A stretch of DNA of 33,739 bases, from contig JAKQEI010000165.1 of the NCBI GenBank assembly GCA_029573495.1, positions 1 through 33,739 on the forward strand, read 5' to 3'. Of this stretch, positions 122-33,283 are shown piece after piece. Positions within the stretch are counted from its first letter, which is position 1. Each line of letters opens with the position of its first letter. The translations under genes were made by a program, and so were the position numbers. The notes beneath the pieces were generated by a model. The model searched no databases and was not told the origin of the DNA. It was given only the letters and a program-made list of their open reading frames with translations. Origin of the DNA: Bacteroidota bacterium. GTDB lineage: Bacteria; Bacteroidota; Bacteroidia; Flavobacteriales_F; PHOS-HE28.

Positions 122-217
122 TTACGCAACTCCACCCACCCAAAAAAAACACCGGACACCTGCTCGCCAAACCCCTGAACACCTCCGGATCTTCGTCGCG
201 TTCGATCACTCGACGCC
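122..217 (+). promoter_or_regulatory. Leader before the glycan cassette, with 13-base element
   Basis: This non-coding leader holds an A8 tract (142-149) and the element CGGACACCTGCTC at 153-165. The same 13 bases occur at 32295 and 33237, and with two changes at 9196. In those three places the element starts exactly 47 bases before an ATG; here the ATG is 65 bases away. At the offset where the other copies carry a -7-like box, this copy reads GATCTTCG (188-195), a poor match to TAnnTTTG. A promoter for the 218-6931 operon is inferred, not shown. Confidence 0.5.
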
Positions 218-655
218 ATGACTGCACCGCCGGAGGTCATCATAGAACACTGTGTCAGAGCCTTCAACGCCAAGGCCCATCTGCTCGGGTATGGAAAGAA
301 GGCGATGGCCCACATCCCGCTGAAACCCGAAAGGCTCAAAGAGAACGAGCCTGGTAACAAGCACCCTGGAAGTCTAGTCTACCTGTGCCGCTCGATGTGC
401 ATGTACGCCATCGGTCAGCACTGCCTTGTTGAAAGCCCGTTCGGTGCCGGTCAGCGCCCGCTGGTCTACGCCGCGATAGGAGCCATGTTCAACCGGGCTA
501 CAAGCACGGCGCACATGGCAGCGCGTGGCTTCTGCGCCCACCTGGAGAACGAGGTCATTGCCGAGATCTACCGGGATGCTTTGTCTTCGATCATCGCCGA
601 AGGGCATGAACTGTGGCGGGTAAACACCGGCCGTCCAAAGTGCATCGAGGTATGA
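218..655 (+). CDS. Hypothetical protein with DnaA domain IV-like C-terminal half
   Basis: 145 residues. The middle and C-terminal part (about 50-110) follows the helix-turn-helix pattern of DnaA domain IV: an Arg-rich helix with CRSMCMYAI, then a short loop, AAIGAMFNRATSTAHMAARG, matching the family's IG..F..R..ST..HA signature. The AAA+ ATPase domains are absent, so it cannot be a full initiator. Phage proteins with isolated DnaA-IV-like domains are known as DNA-binding proteins, so sequence-specific DNA binding is inferred. It is the first gene of the operon and its stop overlaps the next start (ATGA at 652-655). The assignment is by eye and uncertain. Confidence 0.6.
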   Translation: MTAPPEVIIEHCVRAFNAKAHLLGYGKKAMAHIPLKPERLKENEPGNKHPGSLVYLCRSMCMYAIGQHCLVESPFGAGQRPLVYAAIGAMFNRATSTAHMAARGFCAHLENEVIAEIYRDALSSIIAEGHELWRVNTGRPKCIEV

Positions 656-1299
656 GGTTCAGCGCTATCATGCCGTCCTACCTCGGGGACTATCCGGGGG
701 CAGCGTCCGGAAGGCCCGGCAAGCTCATGCGGGCCGTGGAGAGCGTCCTTTCGCAGACGTTCACTGACTGGCAGCTTGCTGTCTGCGCCGATGGGTGTCC
801 GCTGACCTTCGAGATCCTGAAGCGGTACAACGACCCGCGGATCAAGATCATTTTCACGGACAAGCAGCCCCTTTGGTCCCCGGCCCCACGGAATGCGGCC
901 CTGTCTATCGCAGAGGGGGAGTGGATCGTCTACCTCGACACGGACGACTATTGGCGGGAGGATCACCTAGCGGTGATTAACGAGGCCATCGAGAGCATGG
1001 ATATGCCTTCGGTATGGGGGTATTTCAACGCGTGGTTCTATAACACTTCGGTCAAGTCCTTTGTGGAAAGGGAGGTCAACATCGCCAAGTGCAGGACATA
1101 CGGGACCGCCAACATCGTCCACCGCAATGACGGCACCTACTGGCCCGACCAGGGCAGGGACCGCAGCGGGCGATACGACTACGGGACGCAGGACTGCGCG
1201 TTCGTGGAGGTGCTGAAGAAGAAGGGGGTGGGGGTCAGGTTGCCCACGCCCGGATACATGGTATGCCACGAGCCGAACCTGTTACGCATCGACGTATGA
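652..1299 (+). CDS. Glycosyltransferase family 2
   Basis: 215 residues from ATG 652, which overlaps the previous stop as ATGA; a GTG 39 bases upstream in frame is less likely. The protein has the GT-A fold pattern: AIMPSY at the first strand (5-10), RAVESVLSQTFTDW (27-40) before the second strand, ARN-like APRNAA (78-83), and the metal-binding DxD motif as LDTDD (95-99). TQDCAF near 179-184 may carry the catalytic acid. Family 2 enzymes transfer a sugar from a nucleotide-sugar to an acceptor in the cytoplasm. Donor and acceptor cannot be read from sequence. It opens a run of nine glycan-related genes. Confidence 0.88.
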   Translation: MRFSAIMPSYLGDYPGAASGRPGKLMRAVESVLSQTFTDWQLAVCADGCPLTFEILKRYNDPRIKIIFTDKQPLWSPAPRNAALSIAEGEWIVYLDTDDYWREDHLAVINEAIESMDMPSVWGYFNAWFYNTSVKSFVEREVNIAKCRTYGTANIVHRNDGTYWPDQGRDRSGRYDYGTQDCAFVEVLKKKGVGVRLPTPGYMVCHEPNLLRIDV

Positions 1300-2180
1300 G
1301 GATCCAGGTCATATCGCGCGACAACGGAGCGGGTCTGACCAAGGACGTGCAGGTGGTGCGCGAGGCATTCCCGGACAGCGTCGTGGACTTCACCAAGTGG
1401 GATAAGCCACGCACATCTGGACGGTGGGACGTGAATATCCATCTGGAGCTGGTCAACCCCGCTCACCTGCCGAGCGCTATGAATAACGTGCTGGTGCCCA
1501 ACCCTGAGTGGTTCGAGACCTCCTGGATCAAGAGCCTCGACCGCTTCGACATGGTCATCGCCAAGACCAGGAGCACGGAGGCGGTCTTTTCGGCGCTTCA
1601 CAGGAATGTGGTCTACACCGGATGGACGACCCCGTATCTGGATTGCGAAGTGGACTATTCGGTCCCCCGAATGGTTCATGTCGCTGGCAAGTCGATCATG
1701 AAGGGAACCCCGCAGGTCGTGGAGGCGATGCGCCTTGTGCCTGACCTGTCACTGGACCTTGTTGTGGACAAGCCGCTGAAGGGATTGCCGCCAAACATCC
1801 GGCAGCACCACCAGCCCAGCAACGAGCAGTTGTGCGAGCTACGCCGCGCCCCGATACACGTCCAGCCAAGCACGTACGAGGGCTTCGGCCATGTGCTGAA
1901 CGAGGCGCGGATGGCGGGGGCGGTGTTGGTATCCACCCTTGGCGACACGGGATGCGAGATCGCCGGTCAGGACTATTCCATCCTGTGTCCTACTGCTGGA
2001 AAGCGCCGCAAGGCATTGGTGATGGAGTGCCTTCCGGATGTCCCTGCCCTTGCCGATTGCCTACGCATCGCGCACGACCACCTCTTCACCCACGGAAAAG
2101 AGTGGGGCGACCGGGCGAAGCGGGCCTACCAACATGACAGGGGCGAGTTCCATGAACGAATAAGGGCGGCGATACGATGA
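1296..2180 (+). CDS. Glycosyltransferase, GT4-like (GT-B fold)
   Basis: 294 residues from ATG 1296, in ATGA overlap with the preceding gene. The C-terminal half carries the retaining GT-B signature: PSTYEGFGHVLNEARMAG (191-208), in which E195 and E203 form the EX7E motif used to bind the nucleotide-sugar. An early glycine-rich stretch, DNGAGLTKD (9-17), resembles the N-terminal acceptor-side loop of the family. It is shorter than typical 350-400 residue GT4 enzymes, mainly in the N-terminal domain. It acts presumably in the cytoplasm, with neighbours, on a shared acceptor. This is the only clear GT-B enzyme of the cassette. Confidence 0.85.
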   Translation: MRIQVISRDNGAGLTKDVQVVREAFPDSVVDFTKWDKPRTSGRWDVNIHLELVNPAHLPSAMNNVLVPNPEWFETSWIKSLDRFDMVIAKTRSTEAVFSALHRNVVYTGWTTPYLDCEVDYSVPRMVHVAGKSIMKGTPQVVEAMRLVPDLSLDLVVDKPLKGLPPNIRQHHQPSNEQLCELRRAPIHVQPSTYEGFGHVLNEARMAGAVLVSTLGDTGCEIAGQDYSILCPTAGKRRKALVMECLPDVPALADCLRIAHDHLFTHGKEWGDRAKRAYQHDRGEFHERIRAAIR

Positions 2181-2824
2181 ACATCCTTGTGAAACTACCG
2201 ACAAGGGAACGGCCTGATCGGTTCCGAGAGGTGCTGGGCGGATGGGTGCGCAACTGCAAGCGGCCCGAGCGCGTGACCTGGCTCTTCAGTTTCGACATGG
2301 ACGACCCCTCCATGGAAGGGTTCGACGACCTGCCAGAGAACAGCATCGTGGCCTACGGGGCGTCTAACTCCAAGGTCCACGCCATCAACAGGGACATCCC
2401 CCAGGTGAAGACGCCATGGGATGTTCTGCTGGTCCTGAGCGACGACATGCACTGCGCCCGTTCGGATTGGGATGAGGCGATCGAGGCGGACATCGACAGC
2501 CCCGATCAGCTCCTGTGGTACTATGACGGCAAGCAGGAGCACATCTGCACCCTTCCGCTGATGACGCGGGTCTATTACGACCGCTTCGGCTACGTCTACC
2601 ACCCAGACTACCTGAGCGTATTCTGCGACAACGAGCAGACGGACGTAGCACAGCAGTTGGGCCTACTGAAGTACATCTCGACGCCTCTTGCGGTCCATGT
2701 CCACCCGGCCAACTTCACCGGGGTGCTGAAGGACGCCCTATACGAGCGGAACGAGACGGGCAAGATCTGGAAGAGGGACCAGAGCACATGGAAGAACCGC
2801 AAGGCACGTAACTACTTCCTATGA
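2177..2824 (+). CDS. Glycosyltransferase-like protein (GT-A type)
   Basis: 215 residues, ATGA overlap on both sides. The N-terminus MNILVKLPTRERPDRF matches the opening strand of GT2-like enzymes, where the TRxRP pattern is frequent. WDVLLVLSDDM (81-91) supplies an acidic pair at the DxD position, and FCDNEQTD (149-156) may give the second acidic site. The C-terminal third is unassigned. The protein belongs with the surrounding glycosyltransferases by fold pattern and operon position; substrates are unknown. Confidence 0.72.
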   Translation: MNILVKLPTRERPDRFREVLGGWVRNCKRPERVTWLFSFDMDDPSMEGFDDLPENSIVAYGASNSKVHAINRDIPQVKTPWDVLLVLSDDMHCARSDWDEAIEADIDSPDQLLWYYDGKQEHICTLPLMTRVYYDRFGYVYHPDYLSVFCDNEQTDVAQQLGLLKYISTPLAVHVHPANFTGVLKDALYERNETGKIWKRDQSTWKNRKARNYFL

Positions 2825-3429
2825 GGTATTCGCAGAACAACGAGGAGGAGATCATCCGGGAGTACTTCGGCGATCAAGTCGGCACCTTCCTTGACCTTGG
2901 CGCCAACGATGGGCGCACCTTGTCCAACACTGCAGCGTGTGCGAACCGTGGGTGGTCTGGCTTGATGGTAGAGGCATCACCAACGGTATTCGAGCTGCTT
3001 CATTCCCGATACAAAGGCAACCTCCGCGTTTACTGCATCAACGTAGCGGTGGGCACCTCCTGCCGCCGCATCACGCTGCATGAGAGCGGCGAACACCTTG
3101 GGGTGGGGGATAGGTCACTGCTTTCCACCGTGGTAGCCTCAGAGCGCGACCGTTGGACGCGGGAGACATTCGAGGAGGTGGAGGTGGATTGTGTGGACTT
3201 CGCGACCCTGATGAAGACGACCACAATGCGGCGATTCGACCTGATCTCCATAGACATCGAGGGCATGGACCTGCCCGTCCTTCGTCAGATGGACCTAGAC
3301 GAACTGGCATGCCGGATGTTGATCGTTGAGTTCAACGGCAAAGACCAGCACCTATTTGACGCGGAGGCGCACAAGTACGGTATGCACCTGCACAGCAAGA
3401 ACGCGGAGAACCTGATCTACGTGCGATGA
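2821..3429 (+). CDS. FkbM family methyltransferase
   Basis: 202 residues, ATGA overlaps at both ends. It has the FkbM pattern in order: N-terminal SQNNEEEII, the SAM-binding motif I as FLDLGANDG (23-31), MVEASP (49-54) at the end of the second strand, and IDIEGMD (144-150), the family's conserved acidic motif. FkbM enzymes methylate hydroxyl groups, often on sugars. In the middle of a glycosyltransferase operon, O-methylation of the glycan is the likely role. This is inferred from family and context. Confidence 0.88.
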   Translation: MRYSQNNEEEIIREYFGDQVGTFLDLGANDGRTLSNTAACANRGWSGLMVEASPTVFELLHSRYKGNLRVYCINVAVGTSCRRITLHESGEHLGVGDRSLLSTVVASERDRWTRETFEEVEVDCVDFATLMKTTTMRRFDLISIDIEGMDLPVLRQMDLDELACRMLIVEFNGKDQHLFDAEAHKYGMHLHSKNAENLIYVR

Positions 3430-4079
3430 AGCTCTCCATCCTCATCGCCACAATGCCTTCACGGGCTGAAGACCTGAAGAATCTGGTCCGTAGCCTTGGG
3501 ATGGCTGGTATGCCCCATGCCATGCACGACTTCGCCCTTGGCGTCCTCGGATCATGGACCGACCCGGAGCGAGAGGTGGAGGTGCTAGCCTACCTGACCC
3601 CGCCCTACAACAAGGTGGATGAGGGCCTGAGCTACGGTGGCAAGCGCAACGCCTTGATGAGCGTGGCGCAGGGGGATTACGTATGCTTCCACGACGACGA
3701 CGACGAGCCGCACCCCGAGTACATCGACCTTATCCTGAAGGCCATAGAGACAGGTCCGGACGTGGTAGGGTTCAAGGTCGCCTGCTACGGGTACGCCAAC
3801 AATTGCAGGTCCCCGAAGATCATGGAGCCTGCTGACGTGTCTATCCAATACCCCAAATGGGCGAACGACCAGAACGGGTTCAAGTACGTCCGGTTCCCGC
3901 ATCACCTCGCCCCGACCAAGCGGGAACACGCCATCGCCATCGGATACCGAGGCCACTACGGGGAGGACCATGATTACAGCATCAGGATGCAGCAGAGTGG
4001 ACGCCTGAAGACGGAGGCGTACATCGACGAGTTCATGTACGTCTATCGGTACAACGCGAAAAAGAAGCCCGGACAATGA
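3426..4079 (+). CDS. Glycosyltransferase family 2
   Basis: 217 residues, ATGA overlaps. N-terminal LSILIATMPSRA is a classic GT2 opening. GGKRNALMSVAQGDYVCFHD (71-90) followed by DDDE gives the ARN-type helix and the metal-binding acidic cluster. HYGEDHDYSIRM (177-188) carries the ED pair typical of the catalytic base region. The family transfers a sugar from an activated donor. As in its neighbours, there is no membrane segment, so it is probably cytoplasmic. Confidence 0.86.
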   Translation: MKLSILIATMPSRAEDLKNLVRSLGMAGMPHAMHDFALGVLGSWTDPEREVEVLAYLTPPYNKVDEGLSYGGKRNALMSVAQGDYVCFHDDDDEPHPEYIDLILKAIETGPDVVGFKVACYGYANNCRSPKIMEPADVSIQYPKWANDQNGFKYVRFPHHLAPTKREHAIAIGYRGHYGEDHDYSIRMQQSGRLKTEAYIDEFMYVYRYNAKKKPGQ

Positions 4080-4738
4080 GCAGGTGTATCGTATCGGTGG
4101 GGGTTGGTAATTGGTATCCGAAGGGGATCGACCGCCTTGCAAGGTCGCTCGTCCATCATGGATGCCACGACGAGTTCATGCTCTGGAAGAACAAGTATCC
4201 GGATGGGTGTCCGACACACCAGGACAACCCGTACGCCTTCAAACTCGCCGCCATACAAGCCGCCTTCGATGCGGGCCACGATCAGGTTCTTTGGCTGGAC
4301 ACCTCGGCATGGGCAATCCAGAACCCCAAGCCCGTGCTGGATAAGATCGAGCGCGAGGGTTACTACTTCTGGACATCCGGATACAAGTGCGGCACATGGA
4401 CGAACGATGCGACCCTGCAACACTTCGGGGTCAGCCGGGACGAGGCCATGGAGATCCCCATGCTCTACGCCTTGGCTATCGGCCTTGACCGAAGGAGCGG
4501 GCTTTCCATGGAGTTCTTCCGCAGGTGGAAGGAGGCCTGTGATCTTGGCCTGTTCAAAGGAAGCTGGACCCGCTCCGAAGGGGATGACGAGCGGTTCATG
4601 GGTCACCGCCACGACCAGAGCAGCGCCAGCCTCATCGCCCATCAGTTAGGCATGGAGATCGACCACACCCACACCCTGCTGCACCTCTACGAGCCGAAGA
4701 TGCCGGAGAGTGTGGTGCTAACCTTTCAAGGGATATGA
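4076..4738 (+). CDS. Glycosyltransferase-like protein (nucleotide-sugar transferase fold)
   Basis: 220 residues, ATGA overlaps. It does not show a GT2 opening, but its centre resembles GT-A transferases such as the GMA12/MNN10 type: KLAAIQAAFDAGHDQVLWLD (56-75), then TSAWAIQNPKPV, where the acidic residue of LWLDTSAW sits at the DxD site. The helix-then-VLWLD layout and its place inside the cassette support a glycan role. The C-terminal HDQSSASLIAHQLG region resembles the conserved DQ segment of such transferases. Acceptor and donor are unknown. Confidence 0.62.
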   Translation: MSRCIVSVGVGNWYPKGIDRLARSLVHHGCHDEFMLWKNKYPDGCPTHQDNPYAFKLAAIQAAFDAGHDQVLWLDTSAWAIQNPKPVLDKIEREGYYFWTSGYKCGTWTNDATLQHFGVSRDEAMEIPMLYALAIGLDRRSGLSMEFFRRWKEACDLGLFKGSWTRSEGDDERFMGHRHDQSSASLIAHQLGMEIDHTHTLLHLYEPKMPESVVLTFQGI

Positions 4739-5295
4739 AACTGGCAGAAGGAACATTCCAAGGGCTTCACGGGCTGGAGGTGGATCTATTCCGGCGCATC
4801 CTGAAAGGCGTGGGTGGTTATGGCGTGGAAATAGGGTGCTGCGACGGCTTCTCCAGCGCGGTGATCCTTGAAGCCTCGGACCTTCACCTGACATCCATCG
4901 ACCCGTTCATTCCGGACAGCATGGAGGCTAGTTTGGTAGGGAGCAAGGAGCGGTATTATGAGAACATGGAACAGTTCGGCAATCGCGCAAAGCTGTTCTT
5001 CAACTACTCGACGTACGTGGCAATTCACGACTTCTTTGACATTCCCCCAATGGATTTCCTATTCATCGACGGCGACCATTCTCTTCAAGGTGTTCAGAGT
5101 GATTTCGGCAACTGGACACCACACTTGAAAACTGGCGGGATCCTTGCCATGCACGACGCCAGGATGGGCCGCGATGGGTCGCCCAACTTCCACGAAGGAC
5201 CTAGCAAGGTCGCCCGCGAAAGGGTCTTCGCAAGGCCCGGAGAATGGGAGGTGATAGGCGAGGCATTCACCCTTGTAATCGCCCGGAAGCTATGA
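4735..5295 (+). CDS. Class I SAM-dependent methyltransferase
   Basis: 186 residues, ATGA overlap with the preceding gene. SAM-binding motif I is GVEIGCCDGFSS (30-41); SIDPF (54-58) ends the second strand; MDFLFIDGDHSLQGV (106-120) is the hallmark of the Methyltransf_24 group seen in sugar and lipopolysaccharide modification enzymes; GGILAMHD (134-141) is the later motif. It is the second methyltransferase of the cassette and not closely similar to the FkbM member, so the two probably act at different positions on the glycan. The substrate is inferred from context only. Confidence 0.85.
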   Translation: MKLAEGTFQGLHGLEVDLFRRILKGVGGYGVEIGCCDGFSSAVILEASDLHLTSIDPFIPDSMEASLVGSKERYYENMEQFGNRAKLFFNYSTYVAIHDFFDIPPMDFLFIDGDHSLQGVQSDFGNWTPHLKTGGILAMHDARMGRDGSPNFHEGPSKVARERVFARPGEWEVIGEAFTLVIARKL

Positions 5296-6047
5296 ATGCG
5301 ATGATCGGCATCGGTATCTTCCAGAAGCCCGACATGTTGCGGTGGATGCTCGAAGGCATTGCGGAGAACTTCCCCGTCAAGGACGTTCCGATCTCCGTGA
5401 TCTTCGAGGCCGAGAACAGCCAAGGCGCGGACGTGATGGCCCTGCGCGACATGGCAAGTGATCTTGGGCTATGGATGACGCTTCCGGTAAGCACTGAGGA
5501 GCACATCCTGGAGCACGGATGCCATCGCCACCTGATCGAGCAGTTCATGCGGACGGACTGCGATGTACTGATCATCCCCCAAGACGACAACCGCTTTCAG
5601 CGCCCACTACTCCCCGACCTGAAGCGGCTCTGGGAACAGTACGGCACGGACCTCGGATGGGTCAGCGGTCGGGACGGCCACGGCTTCGGCTATTCCGACA
5701 TGGTATGCTCCCCATTCAGCGATAGCAACGCCACCAAGACACCCCTGCCCATCGGAGAGCATAGGGAGGTGATCATGATGAACACCGGCCCTGTGGTGTA
5801 CTTCCGCCACGTCATCGAAAAGGTCGGTCTTCCGGACCCGGACCTCGCATGGTATTGGTGGAGCGATTATAGCCTCAGGTGCCACCACGCCGGACTGAAG
5901 AACATCCTGCTCTCCATGGACTGCCTCCATGAGAAGTTCGGTCGCGTTGGCAACAACCCTGACCTGTTCGACGACGCCTTGGTAGCGCGTTGCCTAAAGA
6001 CGTTCAATGACCGCTGGTCACACATCTACGGACGCAACCCCTTGTGA
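5292..6047 (+). CDS. Glycosyltransferase-like protein (GT2/GT-A type)
   Basis: 251 residues from ATG 5292, which forms ATGA with the previous stop; an in-frame start at 5244 would overlap much more. MIGIGIFQKPDMLRWML is a GT-A opening strand and helix. DVLIIPQDDNRF (91-102) has the acidic pair expected at the metal site. The C-terminal WYWWSDYSLRC may correspond to the acidic catalytic region. Context gives it a place in the same glycan pathway. Substrates cannot be predicted. Confidence 0.72.
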   Translation: MNAMIGIGIFQKPDMLRWMLEGIAENFPVKDVPISVIFEAENSQGADVMALRDMASDLGLWMTLPVSTEEHILEHGCHRHLIEQFMRTDCDVLIIPQDDNRFQRPLLPDLKRLWEQYGTDLGWVSGRDGHGFGYSDMVCSPFSDSNATKTPLPIGEHREVIMMNTGPVVYFRHVIEKVGLPDPDLAWYWWSDYSLRCHHAGLKNILLSMDCLHEKFGRVGNNPDLFDDALVARCLKTFNDRWSHIYGRNPL

Positions 6048-6931
6048 TGGACATTCTGCTCATACCCTGCTGGGCGCGCCCCGAGTTCCTTCACCACTGC
6101 CTGAAGAACCTGGCGGCTACGGGCGACCTATCCACCGTCCATGTCGTGTTCAAGCCAGACACCTCGTTCAACCCGGAGATCCTGGGTGTGATAGACACAT
6201 GGATGGAGCACCTGCCGAGCTACGAGGTCGTGACCCCCAAGCTCGCCAGATACCGGCATAGCCGCCAGTCCAGCAACCTGCTCGAAGGGTACGCCTACGC
6301 CGCCAGCCTCACAGGTGGGCTGGTGTTCATGGTCGAGGAGGATGTGATGGTCGCCAATGACTTCTTCCGCTTCCACCGTGATCTTCACGCCAAGGAAAAG
6401 GTCTTCGCCGCCCTGTCCGTCCGCAACCCCAACCGGCAGGTGTTCACCGATGACGACCCCGAAGCCTACTACCTCTCCAGCGGGGACTATTGCAGCCTTG
6501 GCGTATCAATGCGCCCCGAGGTCATCCAAGGCATGATCCTTCCCCACAAGATCGAGGGGTACTTCCGCGACCCGGCCCGCTATTGCCGCAGGCACTTCCC
6601 TAACTCGACCCTCTCGGATAACTTCGTGGAGCAGGACGGCCTCATCCGCCGCATCCAAGGCGCCTCGACCCTGCCCACGGCCTACCCGCACGTCCCCAGA
6701 GCCTTCCACGCCGGGTTCTACGGATACAACCGTCGCCAGTTCGTCCAAGGCAACCTCACCCAGCGCATCGAGCGCCTTGACAGAACGATCTACAACCCTG
6801 AGGCGATGTTGAAAGCATCCCTTTCAGCCGCGTACTATCAGGACAGCCAACCGATACCTTTGCAAATAACGCCATGGAAACAATTGACACGGAAGCAACC
6901 GGAGGGCGCCTCGCTCCCGACAGCATCGTAA
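6047..6931 (+). CDS. Glycosyltransferase-like protein (GT-A type)
   Basis: 294 residues from ATG 6047, which shares one base with the previous stop (TGATG); a GTG at 6044 is an alternative. MDILLIPCWARPEFLHHCLK is a GT-A opening. GLVFMVEEDVMVANDFF (91-107) carries the acidic EED at the metal-binding site. FVEQDGLIRRIQ near 200 resembles the catalytic acidic region. It ends the cassette. Its last 58 bases also encode the start of the next small membrane protein in another frame. Confidence 0.72.
   Translation: MDILLIPCWARPEFLHHCLKNLAATGDLSTVHVVFKPDTSFNPEILGVIDTWMEHLPSYEVVTPKLARYRHSRQSSNLLEGYAYAASLTGGLVFMVEEDVMVANDFFRFHRDLHAKEKVFAALSVRNPNRQVFTDDDPEAYYLSSGDYCSLGVSMRPEVIQGMILPHKIEGYFRDPARYCRRHFPNSTLSDNFVEQDGLIRRIQGASTLPTAYPHVPRAFHAGFYGYNRRQFVQGNLTQRIERLDRTIYNPEAMLKASLSAAYYQDSQPIPLQITPWKQLTRKQPEGASLPTAS
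6855..6862 (+). promoter_or_regulatory. Candidate -7 box (TACCTTTG) before the packaging genes
   Basis: TACCTTTG matches the Bacteroidota -7 consensus TAnnTTTG exactly and ends 11 bases before ATG 6874. No clear TTG lies 17-23 bases upstream. The box is inside the end of a glycosyltransferase gene, so a chance match is possible: roughly a dozen or more are expected in the window. Confidence 0.3.
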
Positions 6932-7803: not shown

Positions 7804-9194
7804 GCGGCTTTCACGGCTCATACAAGCAAGGGCTGGCATGGGAGGCCTGCCACGACCCGACAGCCGACGAAGTGTTCTTTGGGGGAGGCGCCCGCTCCGG
7901 TAAGAGCATCTTCATCTGTGCCCACGAGATCATCGAGGCGACCACATGGCCCGGAACGCGGGGCATCATCGGACGCAAGGAATACACCTCCCTGCGGGAT
8001 AGCACCCTGAAGACATGGTGGGAGGTCATGGCAATGTTCGGCTACCGGGACGGACATGAGTTCAAGTGGAACGGTCAGGACCAGGAGGTGAGGTGGGCGA
8101 ACGGAAGCCTGACGATGTTCCGGCACCTACGCAACGAGCCGAGCGACCCGGACTACACGCGGCTGGGGTCCACGGAGTTCACACGGTCAGCCCTTGACGA
8201 AGGGAACGAATGCGAGGAACGGCTGGCGGAGATCCTGCTGATGCGAACTGGCTTCAACCCGCCTCCGCATGGCTGCAAGTTCATCGTCACGGGAAACCCT
8301 GGCGAGTACTGGACGAAGTACCGCTATGTCTACACCAAGAAGAACGAGCCGGTGGAGCTTACCCCGAGGCAGCGGGTCATCCTCGCCACGGTGAAGGACA
8401 ACCCGGACCCCAAGGTGCGGGCGGAGTACACCCGGAGGCTGGAGGGGATGCGTTCGGAGTACGATAAGCGGCGCCTGCTCTACGGGGACTGGCTGGTGCA
8501 GCCCCAGACCGGGATGGAGTTCCTGCCCGAGTTCAACTCCACGCAGCACACGGAGAGGATCCCCTACGACCCATCCAAGGCGCTCCATGCCACGCTGGAC
8601 TTCAACGTCTCCCCGTACATGACCCTGTTGGTGTTCCAGGTGTGGAGAGAAAGCCCAACGCTATGGCGGGTCCACTTCCTGAAGGAATACTGTCCGGCAC
8701 ACCCGTTGAGCACGGCACGGGCGGCGTGTCAGATGCTATCAAGGGACCTGAAGGAAGGGTGTTTCGCTGGGCATAAGTCAGGCATGTTCATCTACGGGGA
8801 CAGGTCCGGCAAGAGCCGCAAGGCCGGGGAAGGACCGGTGGTGATGCACGACTTCGACGTAGTGGAGCAGGAGCTGGCGCGGCACCTTGACGGCAGGAGC
8901 GACCGAGTGTTGAGGTCCAACCCGCCGCATGTGAAGGCGCGGGAGTTCATGGGGCATTGCTTCGCCGGAAGGTTGCCCATCAGCATCACCTTCGACCCGG
9001 ACATGAACACCACGATCACCGACCACGTTCACCTCAAACAAGGGGCGGATGGACACATCCTGAAGGAGTACGCGATCGACCCGGTGAGCAAGGTTCGGTA
9101 TGAGAAGTGGGGCCACTGCGTACAGGCGGCTTACTACGGGGTGATCGGGGCGTTCAAGGACATGTACGACGACATGAACGAGCTGGCGTCTTAG
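7800..9194 (+). CDS. terL: Terminase large subunit (packaging ATPase-nuclease)
   Basis: 464 residues from GTG 7800. The ATPase domain shows Walker A as GGGARSGKS (28-36), a Walker B-like segment FTRSALDEGNE (127-137) with D133 and E134, and motif C FIVTGNP (161-167). The C-terminal RNase H-like nuclease has the expected acidic residues: LHATLDFN (262-269, D267), IYGDRSG (331-337, D334), and the end motif KWGHCVQAAYY (436-446), where His replaces the more usual acid. The protein drives genome packaging into the procapsid at the portal and cuts concatemers. Length is normal. Confidence 0.95.
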   Translation: MSGFHGSYKQGLAWEACHDPTADEVFFGGGARSGKSIFICAHEIIEATTWPGTRGIIGRKEYTSLRDSTLKTWWEVMAMFGYRDGHEFKWNGQDQEVRWANGSLTMFRHLRNEPSDPDYTRLGSTEFTRSALDEGNECEERLAEILLMRTGFNPPPHGCKFIVTGNPGEYWTKYRYVYTKKNEPVELTPRQRVILATVKDNPDPKVRAEYTRRLEGMRSEYDKRRLLYGDWLVQPQTGMEFLPEFNSTQHTERIPYDPSKALHATLDFNVSPYMTLLVFQVWRESPTLWRVHFLKEYCPAHPLSTARAACQMLSRDLKEGCFAGHKSGMFIYGDRSGKSRKAGEGPVVMHDFDVVEQELARHLDGRSDRVLRSNPPHVKAREFMGHCFAGRLPISITFDPDMNTTITDHVHLKQGADGHILKEYAIDPVSKVRYEKWGHCVQAAYYGVIGAFKDMYDDMNELAS

Positions 9195-9195
9195 G

Positions 9196-9242
9196 CGGAC
9201 AGGTGCTCGGAATAGGAGGGTGGATCGCCGTAGGTTTGGGGT
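9196..9242 (+). promoter_or_regulatory. Start-associated element and promoter of the 9243 gene
   Basis: CGGACAGGTGCTC at 9196-9208 differs in two adjacent bases from the 13-base element at 153, 32295 and 33237, and starts exactly 47 bases before ATG 9243, as at 32295 and 33237. TAGGTTTG (9231-9238) matches the TAnnTTTG -7 box and lies 4 bases before the start, so the transcript would be nearly leaderless. The segment starts directly after the terminase stop. Confidence 0.6.
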
Positions 9243-10055
9243 ATGAACACCGCCCAAGACATCAAGAGGAAGAACCTCCTTGACCTGCGAAAGGTATTCA
9301 CTATCGGGAAGGCAGCGCTCGATGTGGCCGATGCATTCGGTAAGCCAACGGAAAGGCTGGACCGGATGAAGGCGCTGCATACAGAGGCGCTGGCATTGCT
9401 TGCGCACGTCGATGGCCTGAAAGATCTTGATGACATCATCGAAAGGATTGGTGATGTGCTTATCCAGATGGAAGAGCAGGCGCAACAGAATGGAAGCGCA
9501 CCACAGAGCTTTCTGTCCGGAGGGGTTTCTGCTTCAACTGCTCGGCAGGGCGAGTACGTTCTGCCAAAGAGCGTGACCACCACCAACGACGAGCAGGAGC
9601 GTTACGGTCCACGCCAGCTGGACGATGGCACCTATGCGGCCCAACCTGAGCCTGCGCCAAAAGACGACTTCGCCAGCATGTGCGAGGAACTTGGTCTTAC
9701 GCAGGATGGCCTTGACCGGATCGCAGAAGGACTTGCAGAAGCGTTCAGCCGTGCCGAGCAGCCCAAGCGGGAGCCGCTGTTGACGGTTCAGAGGTACAGC
9801 CCCGAATGCTCGCCGCACAGGGTGAACCCCGCCTACATGACGGAAGACGATGGTGGTGATTACGTCAGGCTTTCGGACATCAAATCCAAGATTACCAGCG
9901 GGGAGTTGATGGTGGTGAGGACAGCGCAGCTTGCCCGTAGCCCAATGAATCAAGGCTGGGTGTGTTCGGCGTGCGGCTTCTTCTACGAGGACTTTCGGAA
10001 TGAGCCGCCAGAAGTCGGTGAGCATTGCCGCTGTGGAGCCAAGATCATCGAGTAA
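9243..10055 (+). CDS. Hypothetical protein with C-terminal zinc ribbon-like motif
   Basis: 270 residues. The N-terminal 80 residues are helical; the centre (85-145) is low-complexity and probably disordered; about 145-172 is a helical acidic segment; the C-terminus has CSACGFFYED (241-250) and HCRCGAKIIE (261-270), where C241, C244, C262 and C264 could bind one zinc. It sits between terminase and portal with its own putative promoter, so it looks like an accessory insertion rather than an essential head gene. Role unknown. Its stop overlaps the next start (TAATG). Confidence 0.6.
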   Translation: MNTAQDIKRKNLLDLRKVFTIGKAALDVADAFGKPTERLDRMKALHTEALALLAHVDGLKDLDDIIERIGDVLIQMEEQAQQNGSAPQSFLSGGVSASTARQGEYVLPKSVTTTNDEQERYGPRQLDDGTYAAQPEPAPKDDFASMCEELGLTQDGLDRIAEGLAEAFSRAEQPKREPLLTVQRYSPECSPHRVNPAYMTEDDGGDYVRLSDIKSKITSGELMVVRTAQLARSPMNQGWVCSACGFFYEDFRNEPPEVGEHCRCGAKIIE

Positions 10056-10225: not shown

Positions 10226-10261
10226 CCCTATACTTGACCCCAAGCCCATCCGGGTGAGCGG

Positions 10262-12268: not shown

Positions 12269-13200
12269 GCGAACGGGAACTAGCGCAGCTATTCGGACGC
12301 GCTACCCGTGAGATGGACGCACGGCAACGCGCCCGCATCAGGCAGCTACGCGGGATCGAGCGTGAGCTATTCGAGGTGCTTGCCCGTCGCATCGTGGAGG
12401 AGCTGGACAGAGGGCGCGGCACCATCACCACCTCGCGCGGAAGCGCATCCATCGGAACGCTGATAGACGCAGCCTTCAGCTCCATCGAGCGGTCAGGGCT
12501 GAAGGCGTTCTACAAGGATGCCATCACGGACATCTTCGGCATCATCGGCGCCAATGACGCCTACCACATCGCCCTTGCGCCCACCGTCCGCAACCTTGGA
12601 GACAAGCGCCTGAAGGCCATGCAAAAGGAGGTGGACCGGCTCATGCGCCGCCGCATGGGTATCGACGGCCGAGGAAGGGCTATCGAAGGCGGGCTGATCG
12701 ACAGCCTGACCAATAGCTCGGAGGTCCGCACACGGGTTAAGGAGGTGATCAACGCCGGTGCTGCATCGGGCATTCCAACGGGCAGGCTGGTCCGCGCCTT
12801 GGAGATCACCCTGAAGGGGACGCGGGTGGACCCTGGATTGCTCCAACGTCAGTTCTCGCCACTGATCTTCGACACCTATCAGTACCTCGACCGGGCCTCC
12901 AGCGATGCCTACGCCACGAAGCTGGGCCTTGATGCGTTCATCTACGCCGGCGGGTTGATCGAGACATCGCGCGACTTCTGCATCAAGCGTAACGGCAAGG
13001 TGTTCAGTCGCAAGGAGGCGGAAAGGGAATGGCCCAAGGACCCCACCCTTCCACGGACAAAGAAGGAACGGGAGAGCGGTGTGCTTGTTGGGTATGACCC
13101 GCTGCGCGACATGGGCAGGTGGAACTGTAGGCATCGTATCCGCTTCATCAGCGATGCGCTCGCCGAACAATTGCGCCCAGACCTAGCATTGAAACCGTAA
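12265..13200 (+). CDS. Minor head protein, Mu F-like head morphogenesis family
   Basis: 311 residues in ATGA overlap with the portal gene. The N-terminal 200 residues are mainly helical. The C-terminal domain carries the family signature: TSRDFCIKRNGKVFSRKEAE (234-253) followed by VGYDPLRDMGRWNCRHRIRF (275-294). In Mu gpF and SPP1 gp7-type proteins this domain ends with the conserved Asn-Cys-Arg-His or similar motif. Such proteins are present in few copies near the portal and act in DNA delivery or head assembly. Domain assignment is good, exact role less so. Confidence 0.82.
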   Translation: MSERELAQLFGRATREMDARQRARIRQLRGIERELFEVLARRIVEELDRGRGTITTSRGSASIGTLIDAAFSSIERSGLKAFYKDAITDIFGIIGANDAYHIALAPTVRNLGDKRLKAMQKEVDRLMRRRMGIDGRGRAIEGGLIDSLTNSSEVRTRVKEVINAGAASGIPTGRLVRALEITLKGTRVDPGLLQRQFSPLIFDTYQYLDRASSDAYATKLGLDAFIYAGGLIETSRDFCIKRNGKVFSRKEAEREWPKDPTLPRTKKERESGVLVGYDPLRDMGRWNCRHRIRFISDALAEQLRPDLALKP

Positions 13201-13233: not shown

Positions 13234-13241
13234 GACCTTTG
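13234..13241 (+). promoter_or_regulatory. Candidate -7 box before the 13246 gene
   Basis: GACCTTTG differs from TAnnTTTG at its first base and lies 4 bases before ATG 13246, the same spacing as the TAGGTTTG box before 9243. No upstream TTG at normal distance. It may start transcription of the scaffold and capsid genes. Confidence 0.3.
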
Positions 13242-28627: not shown

Positions 28628-28630
28628 GCC

Positions 28631-29479
28631 ATGGAGGACGCGATGGACGCCTTTGTTGCCGAGGAGCTGCAGGCCTTCGCGCAATACCTGCTGGAGCAGG
28701 CGAAGGAGCGGCTATTGCGGCGCAACATCGTGGCGGACCGCGACCTGCTGAACAGCCTGGCCACGCAGGCGGCGGAGAAGGAGCTGCGCCTGTGGTTCGC
28801 CGACCATGGCCGGATGCATGACATGGGTGCGGGCAAGGGCTACGAGAAGGGGAAGTTCATGGGCGTGGAGGAGCGCGGGGAGATCCTGAAGGGCCGCACG
28901 CCGAGCAAGTGGTACAGCCGCATGGCCTGGGGCAGCGTGTACGGTACGCTGGTGAACAACCTGGCGAACAAGTATGTGCAGGAGGTGCCGGGCCTGATCA
29001 CGGGGGCGGTGGAACTGGACAGCGCACTGACCGCGTGCGAAGCGCTGGCCGCAGCCCTGGCGGCCGAAGTGGATAGAGCCCGGAGGCCAGCTGGCGCCGC
29101 GTTAGCTGACGGCGGCGACCAGGCCTACCCGACCCACAACGACCGCGAACGAGGTGCCGTGGATACTGGTATGGGTCACAACCTCGTGGCAATTCAAGGG
29201 GGCCGATGGGAAAGGCATCTATTACAGTACGGACGATGTGGCAACGCCAGACCTATGCACCACATGGGTGGCGTTCACGGGCGAAAACCCGCTTCCGACA
29301 GTAGACGAGCTTCAATGTGTAGAGTGCGACTAGTTCGGGGGCGAACATTGAAGTTCGACGAACGGACCTGCCTTCGATACGTGCCGTGTTTCGCCTTAGA
29401 AACAACACGGCACCATGTCGATCAACGCATTCACCTGTCCTACCTGCGACGATCAGTTGCAGGAGATGTCCTTCAATGA
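28631..29479 (+). CDS. Virion protein with run-on or frameshifted C-terminus
   Basis: The open frame encodes 282 residues. The first ~130 look like a normal phage protein: ELQAFAQYLLEQAKERLLRR, then WFADHGRMHDMGAGKGYEKG and TPSKWYSRMAWGSVYGTLVN, a layout (GR..DMG.G.G, then KWYS) common in Bacteroidota phages. Downstream, from about residue 140, the frame has low-complexity Ala/Arg content, and another frame (29106-29333) encodes a fragment with clear similarity to the 30565 protein. The real end is probably near residue 130-140 (about 29025-29050), but no stop occurs there, so a lost stop codon, a deletion or an assembly indel is likely. The frame also overlaps the next gene by 65 bases. Confidence 0.55.
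   Translation: MEDAMDAFVAEELQAFAQYLLEQAKERLLRRNIVADRDLLNSLATQAAEKELRLWFADHGRMHDMGAGKGYEKGKFMGVEERGEILKGRTPSKWYSRMAWGSVYGTLVNNLANKYVQEVPGLITGAVELDSALTACEALAAALAAEVDRARRPAGAALADGGDQAYPTHNDRERGAVDTGMGHNLVAIQGGRWERHLLQYGRCGNARPMHHMGGVHGRKPASDSRRASMCRVRLVRGRTLKFDERTCLRYVPCFALETTRHHVDQRIHLSYLRRSVAGDVLQ
29106..29333 (+). pseudogene. Remnant of a module also found in the 30565 gene
   Basis: In a different frame from the surrounding open frame, 29106-29333 encodes VPWILVWVTTSWQFKGADGK, then GIYYSTDDVATPDLCTTWVA and GENPLP, ending at TAG. The 30565 protein has YYSLDDVATPDLCTTWVAVA at 109-128, so 13 of 14 residues match between YYS and TTW. The segment has no plausible start, and sits in the +1 frame of the 28631 gene. 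It could be the end of that gene after a frameshift or the tail of a truncated paralogue. Confidence 0.55.
29383..29411 (+). promoter_or_regulatory. Hairpin just upstream of the 29415 start
   Basis: GCCGTGTT (29383-29390) pairs perfectly with AACACGGC (29404-29411), with a 13-base loop. The 3' arm contains the A/C-rich leader that precedes ATG 29415, so folding would hide it. It may be a terminator for upstream transcripts or control translation of the next gene. Confidence 0.45.
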
Positions 29480-29987: not shown

Positions 29988-30000
29988 CAACGAGCGACAA

Positions 30001-30275: not shown

Positions 30276-30292
30276 TCCACTGACCAACAACA

Positions 30293-30322
30293 GCGAGAGG
30301 CCGTGTAACAGCGGCCTTTCGC
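30293..30322 (+). terminator. Strong hairpin between two small genes
   Basis: GCGAGAGGCCG (30293-30303) and CGGCCTTTCGC (30312-30322) form an 11-pair stem with one G-U pair and an 8-base loop. No T tract follows. It lies in the gap between 30275 and 30338 and is the strongest hairpin noticed in the window. A terminator or RNA-processing element is inferred. Confidence 0.5.
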
Positions 30323-30337
30323 ATAACAGGAAAGGCC

Positions 30338-30565: not shown

Positions 30566-30978
30566 TGGCATACACCGAACTCACATGCGACGAGGCGGCT
30601 CTTCCATTGGAGGAATTGCTGCGCGGTGCGATGAAGTTGCATGAGGATGGGACGTATTCGTTACAGGTGGTGAACATCACGGACGGGGTCACGTCCTTCA
30701 CGCTCACGAGCGGGTCGGTGACGGATACCTATACGTACGACTTCGACTCCGAGGGTCGTCCGGCGTTCGTACGCCAAGGCTTTGAGGATGATGCGGACGA
30801 GGGTAACCCTGTATGGACCGTTATCTGGACCGATGGCGGTGGTTTCGGGTTCGGGTGGCACATCTCCAATGAAATCGCCGAAGTCCTCTATTACAGCCTC
30901 GACGATGTAGCGACCCCTGACCTGTGTACTACATGGGTTGCGGTGGCAGGAAGTAACCCATTGCCGGTGTTCACATGA
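30565..30978 (+). CDS. Small protein with LTC-type domain and sugar-binding-like module
   Basis: 137 residues from ATG 30565. Residues 5-38 carry the shared domain: ELTCDEAALPLEELLRGAMK then EDGTYSLQVV, with Cys8 21 residues before Gly29. The second half (about 57-137) is a module with SEGRPAF, a WTVIW strand, WHIS, YYSLDDVATPDLCTTW and NPLP at the end. This W-I-W, W-I, YYS..D pattern recurs in secreted and phage proteins and suggests a small beta-sheet binding module. It also appears as the remnant at 29106. ATGA overlap to the next gene. Confidence 0.62.
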   Translation: MAYTELTCDEAALPLEELLRGAMKLHEDGTYSLQVVNITDGVTSFTLTSGSVTDTYTYDFDSEGRPAFVRQGFEDDADEGNPVWTVIWTDGGGFGFGWHISNEIAEVLYYSLDDVATPDLCTTWVAVAGSNPLPVFT

Positions 30979-31241
30979 GCGCAGACGACAAGCAGAGGAT
31001 GGCTGACGCGGTAACATGGATTATGCGGATCCTCACAGGAATTGGAGCCTTCTTCCTCATCAAGACCTACGGGGTGATGAGCGACACCAACACCATGTTG
31101 CAGGAGCACCTACGCCAGTACGCCAGCGATAGGGTAGAGGTGCAGGTGCGCCTTGGCATCGCAGAGAAGGAACTGGAGCGCGTCCGCAACGAAAGGGAGG
31201 CGCGGTACAACAGGCAATACAACAACAACGACCACCAATGA
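30975..31241 (+). CDS. Single-span membrane protein with coiled coil (holin-region)
   Basis: 88 residues, ATGA overlaps. One hydrophobic segment at 14-32, then a charged coiled coil (EHLRQYASDRVEVQVRLGIA and KELERVRNEREARY) ending in an Asn-rich tail. The layout fits small lysis accessory or anti-holin-like proteins. It starts a row of three membrane proteins before the amidase. No holin family is recognised. Confidence 0.58.
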   Translation: MSADDKQRMADAVTWIMRILTGIGAFFLIKTYGVMSDTNTMLQEHLRQYASDRVEVQVRLGIAEKELERVRNEREARYNRQYNNNDHQ

Positions 31242-31420
31242 TAAACAACCTCATCACCGGAGCCGTAGTGCTCTACGCCGTAGCCGTGGGATACCACATG
31301 TACAAGGGCAAGTCATTCAGTGCTGCCCTGTTCTGGGTGTTCACCTGGTTCCGTGGCCTGTTCAGCGCACCCGTTCAGCAGGATCCGCCAGCAGAGGCGC
31401 CGAAAGCGAAGCGCAAATGA
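31238..31420 (+). CDS. Small membrane protein (lysis cassette)
   Basis: 60 residues, ATGA overlaps. Hydrophobic segments at 5-20 and 27-40 flank a short HMYKGKS loop; the tail is Pro/Ala/Lys rich (DPPAEAPKAKRK), positively charged and probably cytoplasmic. Its size and form suit a holin or a lysis regulator; no family can be named. Confidence 0.55.
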   Translation: MINNLITGAVVLYAVAVGYHMYKGKSFSAALFWVFTWFRGLFSAPVQQDPPAEAPKAKRK

Positions 31421-31680
31421 GCAACGCACCCGAAGCCACGAAGGGCCAGAAATGGGCCGCGATCGCTACGCTGGTGGTCCTTGCTGGAGCCTTGGTCTAC
31501 GCCCTGAACAGTGAGGCGTTCCGGCTGCTCCTGTCGGTGGACTGGCCGAAGCTAGTGATCGGCACGGCGGCGGGTATCCTCTCCGGCCTTGGCTTCGGGT
31601 ACGGACATGCCGTGTACGATGTGCTGCTCCGCGACCCTTGGCGCAACCTGCTATCCAAGTGGACGCGAAAGCGATCATAA
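31417..31680 (+). CDS. Two-span membrane protein, holin candidate
   Basis: 87 residues from ATG 31417 (ATGA overlap). An earlier in-frame start at 31153 lies inside the previous two genes and is rejected. Two hydrophobic spans, 13-30 and 46-62 (GTAAGILSGLGFGYG), and a basic C-terminus (KWTRKRS). The two-span layout, basic end and place directly before the amidase gene make it the best holin candidate here. Its end overlaps the amidase start. Confidence 0.55.
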   Translation: MSNAPEATKGQKWAAIATLVVLAGALVYALNSEAFRLLLSVDWPKLVIGTAAGILSGLGFGYGHAVYDVLLRDPWRNLLSKWTRKRS

Positions 31681-32315
31681 CTGCTGGCCTTGCCGGGGTG
31701 GTCCGCTGGGCCATCATGCGGGTACTTCCCCGCGCGATGGTGGGCACCGTAGCCGCTGGCGCTGGGGTGGACTTTGAAAGCTCCGTGATCGACTTGTCGC
31801 AAACTGCGCAGGAGGTGCGGGTCAGCGCCGTAACGCTGGCCGACCTCGATCGCATGGAGCGGGAGGGGGTCATTGACAGGAGTAATGACCTGCCATCGGC
31901 AGGCATCTACCCACTACGTGACCTGTCGATCGTGGACACGCGCTACTGGCACCACACGGCAAGCGCGGAAGGCACCACATGGGACCAGATCGCCAAGGTG
32001 CACATTCAGCGCGGATGGGCCGGGATAGGCTACCACATCGGGATAGACGAAGAGGGGACGGTGGCGATTTTGAACCCTTTGAACAGGCGGACGAACCACA
32101 CGGCCGGGAGGAACACGAAGGGGATCGGGGTGGTGCTGCTGGGGAACTATGAGGAGCACGAACTGAGCGAGGCGATGAAGAAGTCGATCGGGCGGGTCAG
32201 GATGTACCTGGACCTTATCGACATCACGAAGGAGCTGCTGCACAGGGATGTGAAGGCCACGGCGTGTCCCGGGAAGTACGCGGTGGAGTTTCTACGGACA
32301 CCTGCTCAGAAATAG
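31659..32315 (+). CDS. N-acetylmuramoyl-L-alanine amidase (endolysin)
   Basis: 218 residues if started at GTG 31659; TTG 31638 is an alternative. An N-terminal hydrophobic stretch (AIITAGLAGVVRWAIMRVL, 5-23) may be an export signal or membrane anchor, unusual for an endolysin of this family. The catalytic Amidase_2/T7 lysozyme-type domain shows HHTAS (98-102), GYHIGI (124-129), and LLHRDVKATACPGK (193-206). Zinc ligands are probably H98, H195 and C203; the H-to-C distance of 8 equals that of T7 lysozyme. It cuts the amide bond between the glycan and peptide of peptidoglycan at lysis. It overlaps the upstream membrane gene by 22 bases. Confidence 0.9.
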   Translation: MDAKAIITAGLAGVVRWAIMRVLPRAMVGTVAAGAGVDFESSVIDLSQTAQEVRVSAVTLADLDRMEREGVIDRSNDLPSAGIYPLRDLSIVDTRYWHHTASAEGTTWDQIAKVHIQRGWAGIGYHIGIDEEGTVAILNPLNRRTNHTAGRNTKGIGVVLLGNYEEHELSEAMKKSIGRVRMYLDLIDITKELLHRDVKATACPGKYAVEFLRTPAQK

Positions 32316-32341
32316 GCGGTGAATGGGTGAAGATTGGGGGC
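32295..32341 (+). promoter_or_regulatory. Start-associated element before the 32342 gene
   Basis: CGGACACCTGCTC (32295-32307) starts exactly 47 bases before ATG 32342 and overlaps the end of the amidase gene. Close to the start, GGTGAAGATTGGGGGCATG resembles the copy before 33284 (GGTGAAGATTAGCGGCATG). A -7 box is not obvious: AAGATTGG sits where TAGGTTTG lies in the 9196 copy. A promoter or regulator site for an accessory gene is inferred. Confidence 0.6.
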
Positions 32342-32530
32342 ATGAAAAAGACACGCCACTACATCATTCTAGCCGCATCAATGCTGGCGCTTGGATACTT
32401 GGTCGGAGCCTTCGGATCGGCATCATTCAACATCGCCGAATGGAGCGAAAAGGCGCGGTGGATGGTCGCTTCAATTACCGCATTCGTGACGATGTTCATT
32501 GTTGGCGCAATTGCCAGCTATCCAAACTGA
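32342..32530 (+). CDS. Small two-span membrane protein
   Basis: 62 residues from ATG 32342; an in-frame start at 32264 lies within the amidase gene. KKTR leads into a first span (7-25, ILAASMLALGYLVGA) and the second is at 40-59 (WMVASITAFVTMFIVGAIAS), with ENIAEWSEKAR-like loop between. Its own start-associated element suggests independent expression. Role unknown; lysis or envelope function is plausible. Confidence 0.58.
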   Translation: MKKTRHYIILAASMLALGYLVGAFGSASFNIAEWSEKARWMVASITAFVTMFIVGAIASYPN

Positions 32531-32534
32531 CCCC

Positions 32535-32924
32535 ATGAAAGACGCCCGGATATGGCTCGTCACCGCGCTGGTGTTCTTCATCCTGATCTGGGGCGTGTTC
32601 TACTATGCGCGGTCTACGGTCAAATGTCCCGAGCCTATCACCACATGGGAGGCCCTACGGGACCTTCAGGCAAAGGCCGCAAGGACCGACAGCCTTGATG
32701 CCCTGATGACCACCATCCTGAGCGCCGCCGAAGACGCCCACAAGGAGCACGTCAACGAGATCGTACGCCGCCCACAACCTTCATTCGATGACTACTTCAC
32801 GAATTCTCCAGATCGCGCTGCTGCTCGGGCTAAATGGGATAGCATCCTCATGCGCCGCCCAGCACGATACGACTACCGTACCGACAGCGCCGGACACCTG
32901 CTTTCTCCTGATACCGTGCGCTGA
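32535..32924 (+). CDS. Single-span membrane protein, inner-membrane spanin candidate
   Basis: 129 residues from ATG 32535. A membrane anchor at 6-25 (IWLVTALVFFILIWGVFYYA) is followed by about 100 polar residues expected in the periplasm, including a helical part AKAARTDSLDALMTTILSAA. The following lipoprotein-like gene begins inside its 3' end in another frame and overlaps by 137 bases, as in Rz/Rz1. The order amidase, anchored protein, overlapping lipoprotein fits spanins, which fuse the two membranes during lysis. No spanin family match can be claimed. The 12-base CGGACACCTGCT occurs at 32891-32902 in its end. Confidence 0.55.
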   Translation: MKDARIWLVTALVFFILIWGVFYYARSTVKCPEPITTWEALRDLQAKAARTDSLDALMTTILSAAEDAHKEHVNEIVRRPQPSFDDYFTNSPDRAAARAKWDSILMRRPARYDYRTDSAGHLLSPDTVR

Positions 32925-33234
32925 GATCGACACGGCGGCGGCTTACAGGTCCATGTTGAACGCCACGGCGCGGGACCTTGCTATCGACCGGGCGAAGTGC
33001 CTCTACCGGGAATGGACGTTGATCGGCAGGACGGAGGCGCTGCACCTTGAAACCAAGGCGGCGAAAAGGGAGGAACGGGAACGGTGCGACTTCACGGTAA
33101 AAGCCTTGGAGGACAAACTGTACGCCGAACAGCGGATCAGCGACCGGCTCAGGCCATGGGCCACGATAGGGAAGGTCACGGTGGGGCTAGGTCTTGCGGC
33201 TGGCGGATACGGCCTTTACCGGCTCGTGAAATAA
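32788..33234 (+). CDS. Lipoprotein-like protein, outer-membrane spanin candidate
   Basis: 148 residues from ATG 32788, overlapping the preceding gene in a different frame. N-terminal ILQIALLLGLNGIASSC (6-22) fits a lipoprotein signal, with Cys22 as the lipidated residue and IASSC as lipobox. A charged coiled coil follows (HLETKAAKREERERCDFTVK). Unlike classical Rz1, it is long and has a C-terminal hydrophobic span (125-143, TIGKVTVGLGLAAGG), so another envelope role or a single-gene spanin is possible. The outer-membrane placement is inferred. Confidence 0.55.
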   Translation: MTTSRILQIALLLGLNGIASSCAAQHDTTTVPTAPDTCFLLIPCAEIDTAAAYRSMLNATARDLAIDRAKCLYREWTLIGRTEALHLETKAAKREERERCDFTVKALEDKLYAEQRISDRLRPWATIGKVTVGLGLAAGGYGLYRLVK

Positions 33235-33236
33235 CC

Positions 33237-33283
33237 CGGACACCTGCTCGCCAAGGTTGAAGGAAGGGGTGAAGATTAGCGGC
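33237..33283 (+). promoter_or_regulatory. Start-associated element before the 33284 gene
   Basis: CGGACACCTGCTC (33237-33249) is 47 bases before ATG 33284. The 19 bases CCGGACACCTGCTCGCCAA (33236-33254) are also found exactly at 152-170. The 3' end, GGTGAAGATTAGCGGCATG, matches the 32342 leader except at two positions. The element follows directly after the stop of the lipoprotein-like gene. Confidence 0.6.

Follow-up and report, generated by a model that had tools for sequence, protein, structure and literature searches.

A repeated 13-base element with a promoter-like box at constant spacing in a phage contig from a Bacteroidota assembly

Described promoter layouts and the repeated element

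In Bacteroidota, promoters of the primary sigma factor consist of a TTTG at -33 and a -7 box TANNTTTG (TAnnTTTG), and many transcripts start 4-5 bases downstream of this box (PMC6847099). Among described phage features, the one closest to the case presented here is the extended start-associated sequence (ESAS) found in cluster K mycobacteriophages, a short repeat about 50 bases before selected starts that contains a putative promoter (PMC3203893, PMC11373665). ESAS have 17-base imperfect inverted repeats separated by a spacer, come with a 13-base start-associated sequence (SAS) beside the start codon (one exception has been noted) and belong to phages of actinobacterial hosts; a leaderless transcript has been predicted there for another gene of phage Adephagia, gene 90 (PMC3203893, PMC11373665). 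Here, we describe a 13-base element, CGGACACCTGCTC, that recurs in a 33,739-base stretch of DNA (JAKQEI010000165.1, hereafter the window), and three start codons are each located exactly 47 bases from the first base of an element copy. The window is the entire contig C271 of the 4.07-Mb assembly G000. Phage-specific words in the -35 region combined with a retained host -10/-7 box are also a feature of the activator-dependent middle promoters of phage T4 (MotA box) and of the lambda CII promoters. The layout encountered here is the same, while sequence and host are unrelated and the activator is putative. To our knowledge, promoters of phages from GC-rich environmental Bacteroidota have been little mapped, and the element was not named in the published titles and abstract openings surveyed.

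An earlier note on this DNA had listed the element at 153, 32295 and 33237 and a variant at 9196. Sequences and positions proved correct (Table 1), as did the distance of exactly 47 bases to ATGs 9243, 32342 and 33284 and the start-proximal GGTGAAGATT(G/A) common to 32342 and 33284. The list of four copies has to be extended by another one at 32891, which differs by one base and lies where the DNA codes in two frames. The notion that each copy resides right after a stop codon holds for those at 9196 and 33237 and fails for that at 32295, which is situated inside the endolysin frame. Copy 153 lacks an ATG at +47; the next gene starts at 218, i.e. at +65.

Dinucleotide shuffling produced three exact copies of some 13-mer in two of 100 sequences and no more than two copies in the remaining 98, and the repeat by itself is thus unusual without being decisive. 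With up to three mismatches, the motif matches 27 times in the window as compared with 15.6 expected, a number reached by one of 100 shuffles. The copies are not fully independent of each other because BLAST reveals 25 identical bases out of 27 around the element for copies 153 and 33237 and 21 out of 24 around the start for 32295 and 33237; beyond these patches there is little further likeness among the copies. Within assembly G000, the exact 13-mer is restricted to this contig, and a search of 44 further genomes of the genus did not detect the 19-mer that copies 153 and 33237 have in common; the repeat is thus not a site belonging to the host. The exact 19-mer was encountered in a single IMG/VR contig that neither yielded a terminase match nor has a box at +35, and this occurrence was taken as chance. 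The loci of the two end copies stop at the window ends.

Table 1. Element copies, -7-like boxes and adjacent genes in the window
Feature	Position	Strand	Remarks
Element copy 1, CGGACACCTGCTC	153..165	+	19-mer 152-170 in common with 33236-33254
Element copy 2, CGGACAGGTGCTC, two changes	9196..9208	+	terminase stop ends at 9194, one base earlier
Element copy 3, CGGACACCTGCTC	32295..32307	+	within 3' end of endolysin gene (31638-32315), before TAG
Element copy 4, CGGACACCTGCTC	33237..33249	+	stop of preceding gene ends at 33234
Additional copy, CGGACACCTGCTT, one change	32891..32903	+	overlap of genes 32535-32924 and 32788-33234
-7-like box GATCTTCG	188..195	+	35 bases after first base of copy 1; transcript predicted to begin at about 200, with a leader of 18 bases to ATG 218
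-7-like box TAGGTTTG	9231..9238	+	4 bases before ATG 9243; predicted leaderless start
-7-like box AAGATTGG	32330..32337	+	4 bases before ATG 32342; weak match
-7-like box AAGATTAG	33272..33279	+	4 bases before ATG 33284; weak match
-7-like box GACCTTTG	13234..13241	+	4 bases before ATG 13246; leaderless-type promoter (predicted) without 13-mer
First gene after copy 1	218..655	+	145 aa; no family match, no relative beyond itself
Gene after copy 2	9243..10055	+	270 aa; no relative found beyond itself
Gene after copy 3	32342..32530	+	62 aa, hydrophobic stretches; no family above cutoff
Gene after copy 4	33284..33739	+	cut by contig end; part matches a relative (G099)

The second box and its fit to host promoters

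All four main copies are followed by a second, -7-like box, the first base of which is located 35 bases from that of the element, and this includes copy 153 which breaks the 47-base rule. At offsets 13-46, eight columns are invariant in the four main copies, while randomly chosen sets of four positions have a mean of 0.66 and none of 20,000 such sets reached eight. The box was originally spotted by eye; the model used for scoring it was trained without the window. The box at 9231 matches TAnnTTTG, that at 188 fits a variant found in the host, and those at 32330 and 33272 conform only to the relaxed form nAnnTTnG. Compared with the Bacteroidota primary-sigma promoter, the box is -7-like and lies 4 bases before the predicted start, a distance in agreement with that promoter. 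The arrangement differs in that a 13-base phage word occupies -47 to -35, only one of the four boxes is a good match and TTTG is not found at the expected place around -33, where the element ends with CTC followed by G or A. A clear -33 element did not emerge from 31 aligned host promoters either.

Host promoters were analyzed upstream of the first ATG of open reading frames of at least 120 amino acids that remained after removal of overlaps, and starts less than 100 bases from the end of a stretch were dropped. The sample from G000 comprised 60 stretches (L044-L103) with 794,215 bases and 554 usable starts, and a second genome of the genus, G011, contributed 289 starts (L104-L123). In G000, nAnnTTnG exhibits a peak at a gap of 4 bases before the ATG (20 of 554 starts), with 0-8 occurrences at the other gaps between 0 and 59. 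At the same gap, the reversed pattern yielded two and the reverse complement one occurrence, and the highest control value at any gap was seven. The same peak is present in G011 (9 of 289 starts; 0-3 at other gaps), and as judged from these two genomes, a small but regular fraction of starts in the host genus, which is GC-rich and Bacteroidota-like, appears to have leaderless promoters. When both are pooled, the box precedes the ATG by 4 bases at 29 of 843 starts and a C is found at -1 in 28 of these 29 cases. G084, a genome from another family with 40.6% GC, has no clear peak at 4 bases (2 of 145). TAnnTTTG occurs 37 times within the 100 bases upstream of the 554 G000 starts, compared with six times for the reversed pattern, and we infer a host of the Bacteroidota type from these promoters.

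The 843 host starts (554 from G000, 289 from G011; window excluded) served to train a mixture model of the 12 bases preceding the ATG. It converged on TACCTTCGcggC, which accounts for 5.7% of the starts and carries 7.0 bits in the box, with 3.9 bits at most for five shifted positions. When applied to 44 hand-picked gene starts of the window, the model ranked 13246 (9.4), 9243 (4.3), 32342 (3.7) and 33284 (3.2) highest, and the latter three have the 13-mer. Correcting start coordinates to 18527, 20465 and 29415 left this order of the top four unchanged. At these four starts, the box found under the host model would place the transcript start on the ATG, with posteriors below 0.5 at 32342 and 33284. 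Among 311 plus-strand ATGs opening at least 40 codons, 13246, 9243, 32342 and 33284 occupy ranks 1, 4, 5 and 6. At the four element copies, +35 is the best of all offsets from -40 to -8 and from 13 to 79 (summed score 18.1, next best -12.5), and none of 500,000 random sets of four positions equals this sum. When copy 32295 is omitted, the box of which resembles that of 33237, a single one of 500,000 random sets of three reaches the score. The box of copy 153 together with the next 4 bases is the top-scoring place on the plus strand of the window (2.96e-5 of positions).

Distant relatives

Single queries of IMG/VR with the terminase, the endolysin and protein 14730 did not retrieve any relative. 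A 20-sequence terminase alignment led to eight IMG/VR loci, of which the six best contigs were taken whole; L020 and L021 (34% and 23%) were left out of all later counts except for that of near-matches to the 13-mer. The search of genome contigs for relatives yielded none, megablast of window bases 1-25000 against phages gave no match, and a protein search of phages returned 35 records, all below 60% identity. The closest terminases are 71-77% identical and known as proteins only, and the comparison of the 13-mer thus covers distant relatives. The six whole contigs (39-44% in the match table) have much of the window's gene order in common.

A (T/C)AnnTT(T/C)G box begins 5-45 bases past the terminase stop in each of the six contigs examined out of the eight found; the value for the window is 37. 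In three of them (G100, G102 and G104), the terminase gene is followed by TATGTTTG, 4 bases and an ATG, and as these three are near-identical at the junction, the six contigs correspond to about four independent cases. Over the six contigs, TAnnTT(T/C)G was counted 68 times in sense and nine times in antisense orientation. Upstream words differ from the element: five of the six contigs have AAAG at 7-9 bases before (T/C)AnnTTTG and four of them TTGnAnnT ahead of it, and the AAAG-type pattern has no match in the window. The repeated promoters predicted in these relatives resemble those of the window in stemming from related phages, in having the same kind of -7 box and in featuring a repeated upstream word; they differ in the word itself and in its placement between -33 and the box. 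Measured against the refuting condition of the earlier note, namely related phages with the genes but without a conserved element or spacing, the picture is mixed: distant relatives keep many genes and the promoter-like box at the terminase junction and do not keep the element. Given the box after the terminase in six out of six contigs and the differing upstream words, this phage group seems to retain a promoter after the terminase gene and to vary the control word upstream of it.

In one of the relatives (G099, L030-L032; near L031 sense 12962-13010), CGTGACTGAAAC stands immediately behind three repeated promoters, and next to a further promoter it is present once in inverted orientation, as might be expected of a regulator site in this phage.

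A probable two-part promoter, its alternatives and its implications

We consider it likely that the 13-mer is a phage-specific element at -47 to -35 which acts together with host-type, mostly weak -7 boxes and gives rise to leaderless mRNAs at three genes. In such a two-part promoter, the 13-mer would constitute the upstream half, followed 35 bases on by the -7 box (TAnnTTTG, here nAnnTTnG), and host RNA polymerase with a primary sigma factor of the Bacteroidota type would initiate 4 bases downstream of the box. For 9243, 32342 and 33284, the start would coincide with the A of the ATG, and the distance of 47 bases between element and ATG would exist because the predicted start falls on this A. 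At copy 153, transcription would begin at base 200, 18 bases before ATG 218. Centered near -41, the 13-mer would occupy either an activator position or the place of a -33/-35 element; class II activators bind near -41. It may offset the weak box, most likely by binding a putative activator. Because only one of the four boxes is strong and no part is better conserved than the 13-mer, an activator that the phage either encodes or modifies probably binds there. The repeat, its spacing, the fit of the boxes to the host model and the promoter-like box behind the terminase of relatives are computed results, and promoter activity, start points and the existence and identity of such a protein are inferred. 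The proposal of the earlier note that the repeat could be a phage-specific promoter or operator gains support from the -7-like box at +35 in all four copies and from the similar box at the terminase junction in all six relatives examined, and the element is real and probably functional as part of a promoter. A more detailed scenario can be offered only tentatively, as a possibility that we rate somewhat below an even chance: a phage transcription factor or alternative sigma subunit, encoded outside the fragment or by an unassigned gene, might read CGGACA(CC/GG)TGCTC as a -35-like element and direct host polymerase to the weak -7 boxes, such that leaderless mRNAs for lysis and accessory genes are formed, and related phages would use another word and probably another regulator.

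Several observations weigh against the two-part promoter. The combination of 13-mer and box was not found in IMG/VR, and with one mismatch allowed, the eight related contigs contain eight matches to the 13-mer as compared with nine for the reversed control, none of the eight having a box at +35. In the window itself, copy 32891 is not followed by a box at this offset (score -14.2). The boxes of 32342 and 33284 are weak, with an A at -12, found in none of 29 host boxes at a 4-base gap, and a G at -10, found in two of 29, and their posteriors amount to 0.44 and 0.35, respectively. Among the 311 ATGs, the internal ones at 28814 and 3289 score above 9243. The sole further plus-strand TAnnTTTG, at 6855-6862, resides inside gene 6044-6931, and the bare pattern of box, 4 bases and ATG occurs in seven of 200 shuffles at least as often as in the window, with its four sites on the plus and none on the minus strand. 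A model fitted earlier without constraints moved away to a different pattern, performed weakly (12,917 of 1,000,000 random sets were as good, about 1.3%) and scored offset 43 above 35; this model was counted as a failed control. The assignment of the phage to the genus rests on the place of the contig in assembly G000, which has 8.5% contamination, and the terminase of the contig is present in no genome of the genus except G000. None of the 44 window genes scanned with Pfam matched a family of transcription regulators. In Flavobacterium johnsoniae, G is virtually absent at -10/-9, to be compared with TAGGTTTG at 9231, and 87% of the predicted transcripts have leaders of more than 10 bases (PMC6847099). 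With a method tuned to a different box, leaderless genes were predicted in one of 37 genomes of Bacteroidetes/Chlorobi (PMC3160421).

Among the alternatives, we regard an operator as the least improbable, albeit an unlikely one: a repressor or another regulator might bind the 13-mer over ordinary host-type promoters and silence the genes until induction or late infection. The position at -47 to -35 would suit a repressor as well, the 19-mer form was absent from the remaining genomes of the genus that were searched, and copy 9196 has only two central bases altered with its flanks intact, as might be tolerated by a dimer site. However, three of the four boxes are below typical host strength and better suited to activation, a 12-base dyad in the element pairs at only three of six positions as judged by eye, inverted repeats of at least 8 bases do not overlap any copy, and the lack of a regulator family in the Pfam scan counts against a repressor, too. 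A strong palindrome within the element had been considered and was dropped on the basis of these three pairs. It is rather improbable that the 13-mer marks boundaries between genes and thereby aids recombination of modules, the spacing then following from the joining points. Copies do reside at gene junctions or close to them, the genes behind two of the copies have no known relatives, copies 153 and 33237 are alike at 25 of 27 bases, and copy 32891 has no promoter box. Recombination at such a word would explain neither the constant 35-base distance of the second box nor its fit to a host promoter model, and copy 153 deviates in its distance to the ATG while its distance to the box is the same.

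That the 13-mer serves as a translation signal in the mRNA, as are the SAS of cluster K mycobacteriophages to which the earlier note had likened it, is very improbable, even though the distance to three start codons is fixed and the length of 13 bases is the same as in cluster K (PMC3203893). SAS usually lie 3-9 bases from the start codon (PMC11373665), whereas the element here is 47 bases away and has no neighboring SAS. Inverted repeats of the ESAS type are lacking as well: the four stretches around the copies contain only one inverted repeat of at least 8 bases (32261-32268/32350-32357), which is not at the element. A distance of 47 bases is too far for contact with the ribosome. In addition, copy 153 breaks the distance, and if the repeat belongs to a promoter, it would not be part of the very transcript that it controls. 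We consider mere chance, both in the repeat and in its spacing, the least probable of all explanations. Short words do recur in GC-rich coding DNA and the shuffles with three exact copies of a 13-mer, two in a hundred, speak for it, but spacing, second box and fit to the host model would all have to be due to chance as well.

Some of the genes at the copies and elsewhere in the window deserve mention. The protein encoded at 218, suggested earlier as a candidate binder of the element, finds no support in this role, as it matches no family and no relative beyond itself was found; an impression by eye that it resembles the C-terminal part of DnaA was dropped since Pfam and PHROGs searches remained empty. 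The contig is a linear fragment that ends within its last gene, as compared with lengths of up to 54,265 bases in related contigs. After the endolysin gene, the region 32342-33234 encodes a short hydrophobic protein, holin-like by its position as judged by eye, and then two overlapping genes with a lipobox-like LNGIASSC (by eye). It is likely to represent a lysis cassette with inner and outer spanin-like genes, although its genes match no Pfam family above the respective cutoff. A run of glycosyltransferase-like and methyltransferase-like genes (613-5295) is located upstream of the terminase genes and is partly kept in relatives. Two stretches of 86 bases (29212-29297 and 30881-30966) are 71% alike and lie 1669 bases apart.

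If the proposed two-part promoter is indeed used, the window would contain a phage-specific promoter word, the position of which can be tested at base level, and the odd 47-base rule would be accounted for. Leaderless mRNAs would then be formed in a group where they have rarely been predicted (one of 37 genomes; PMC3160421). The comparison with distant relatives suggests that the promoter stays at one and the same gene junction in these phages and that the word by which it is controlled is exchanged.

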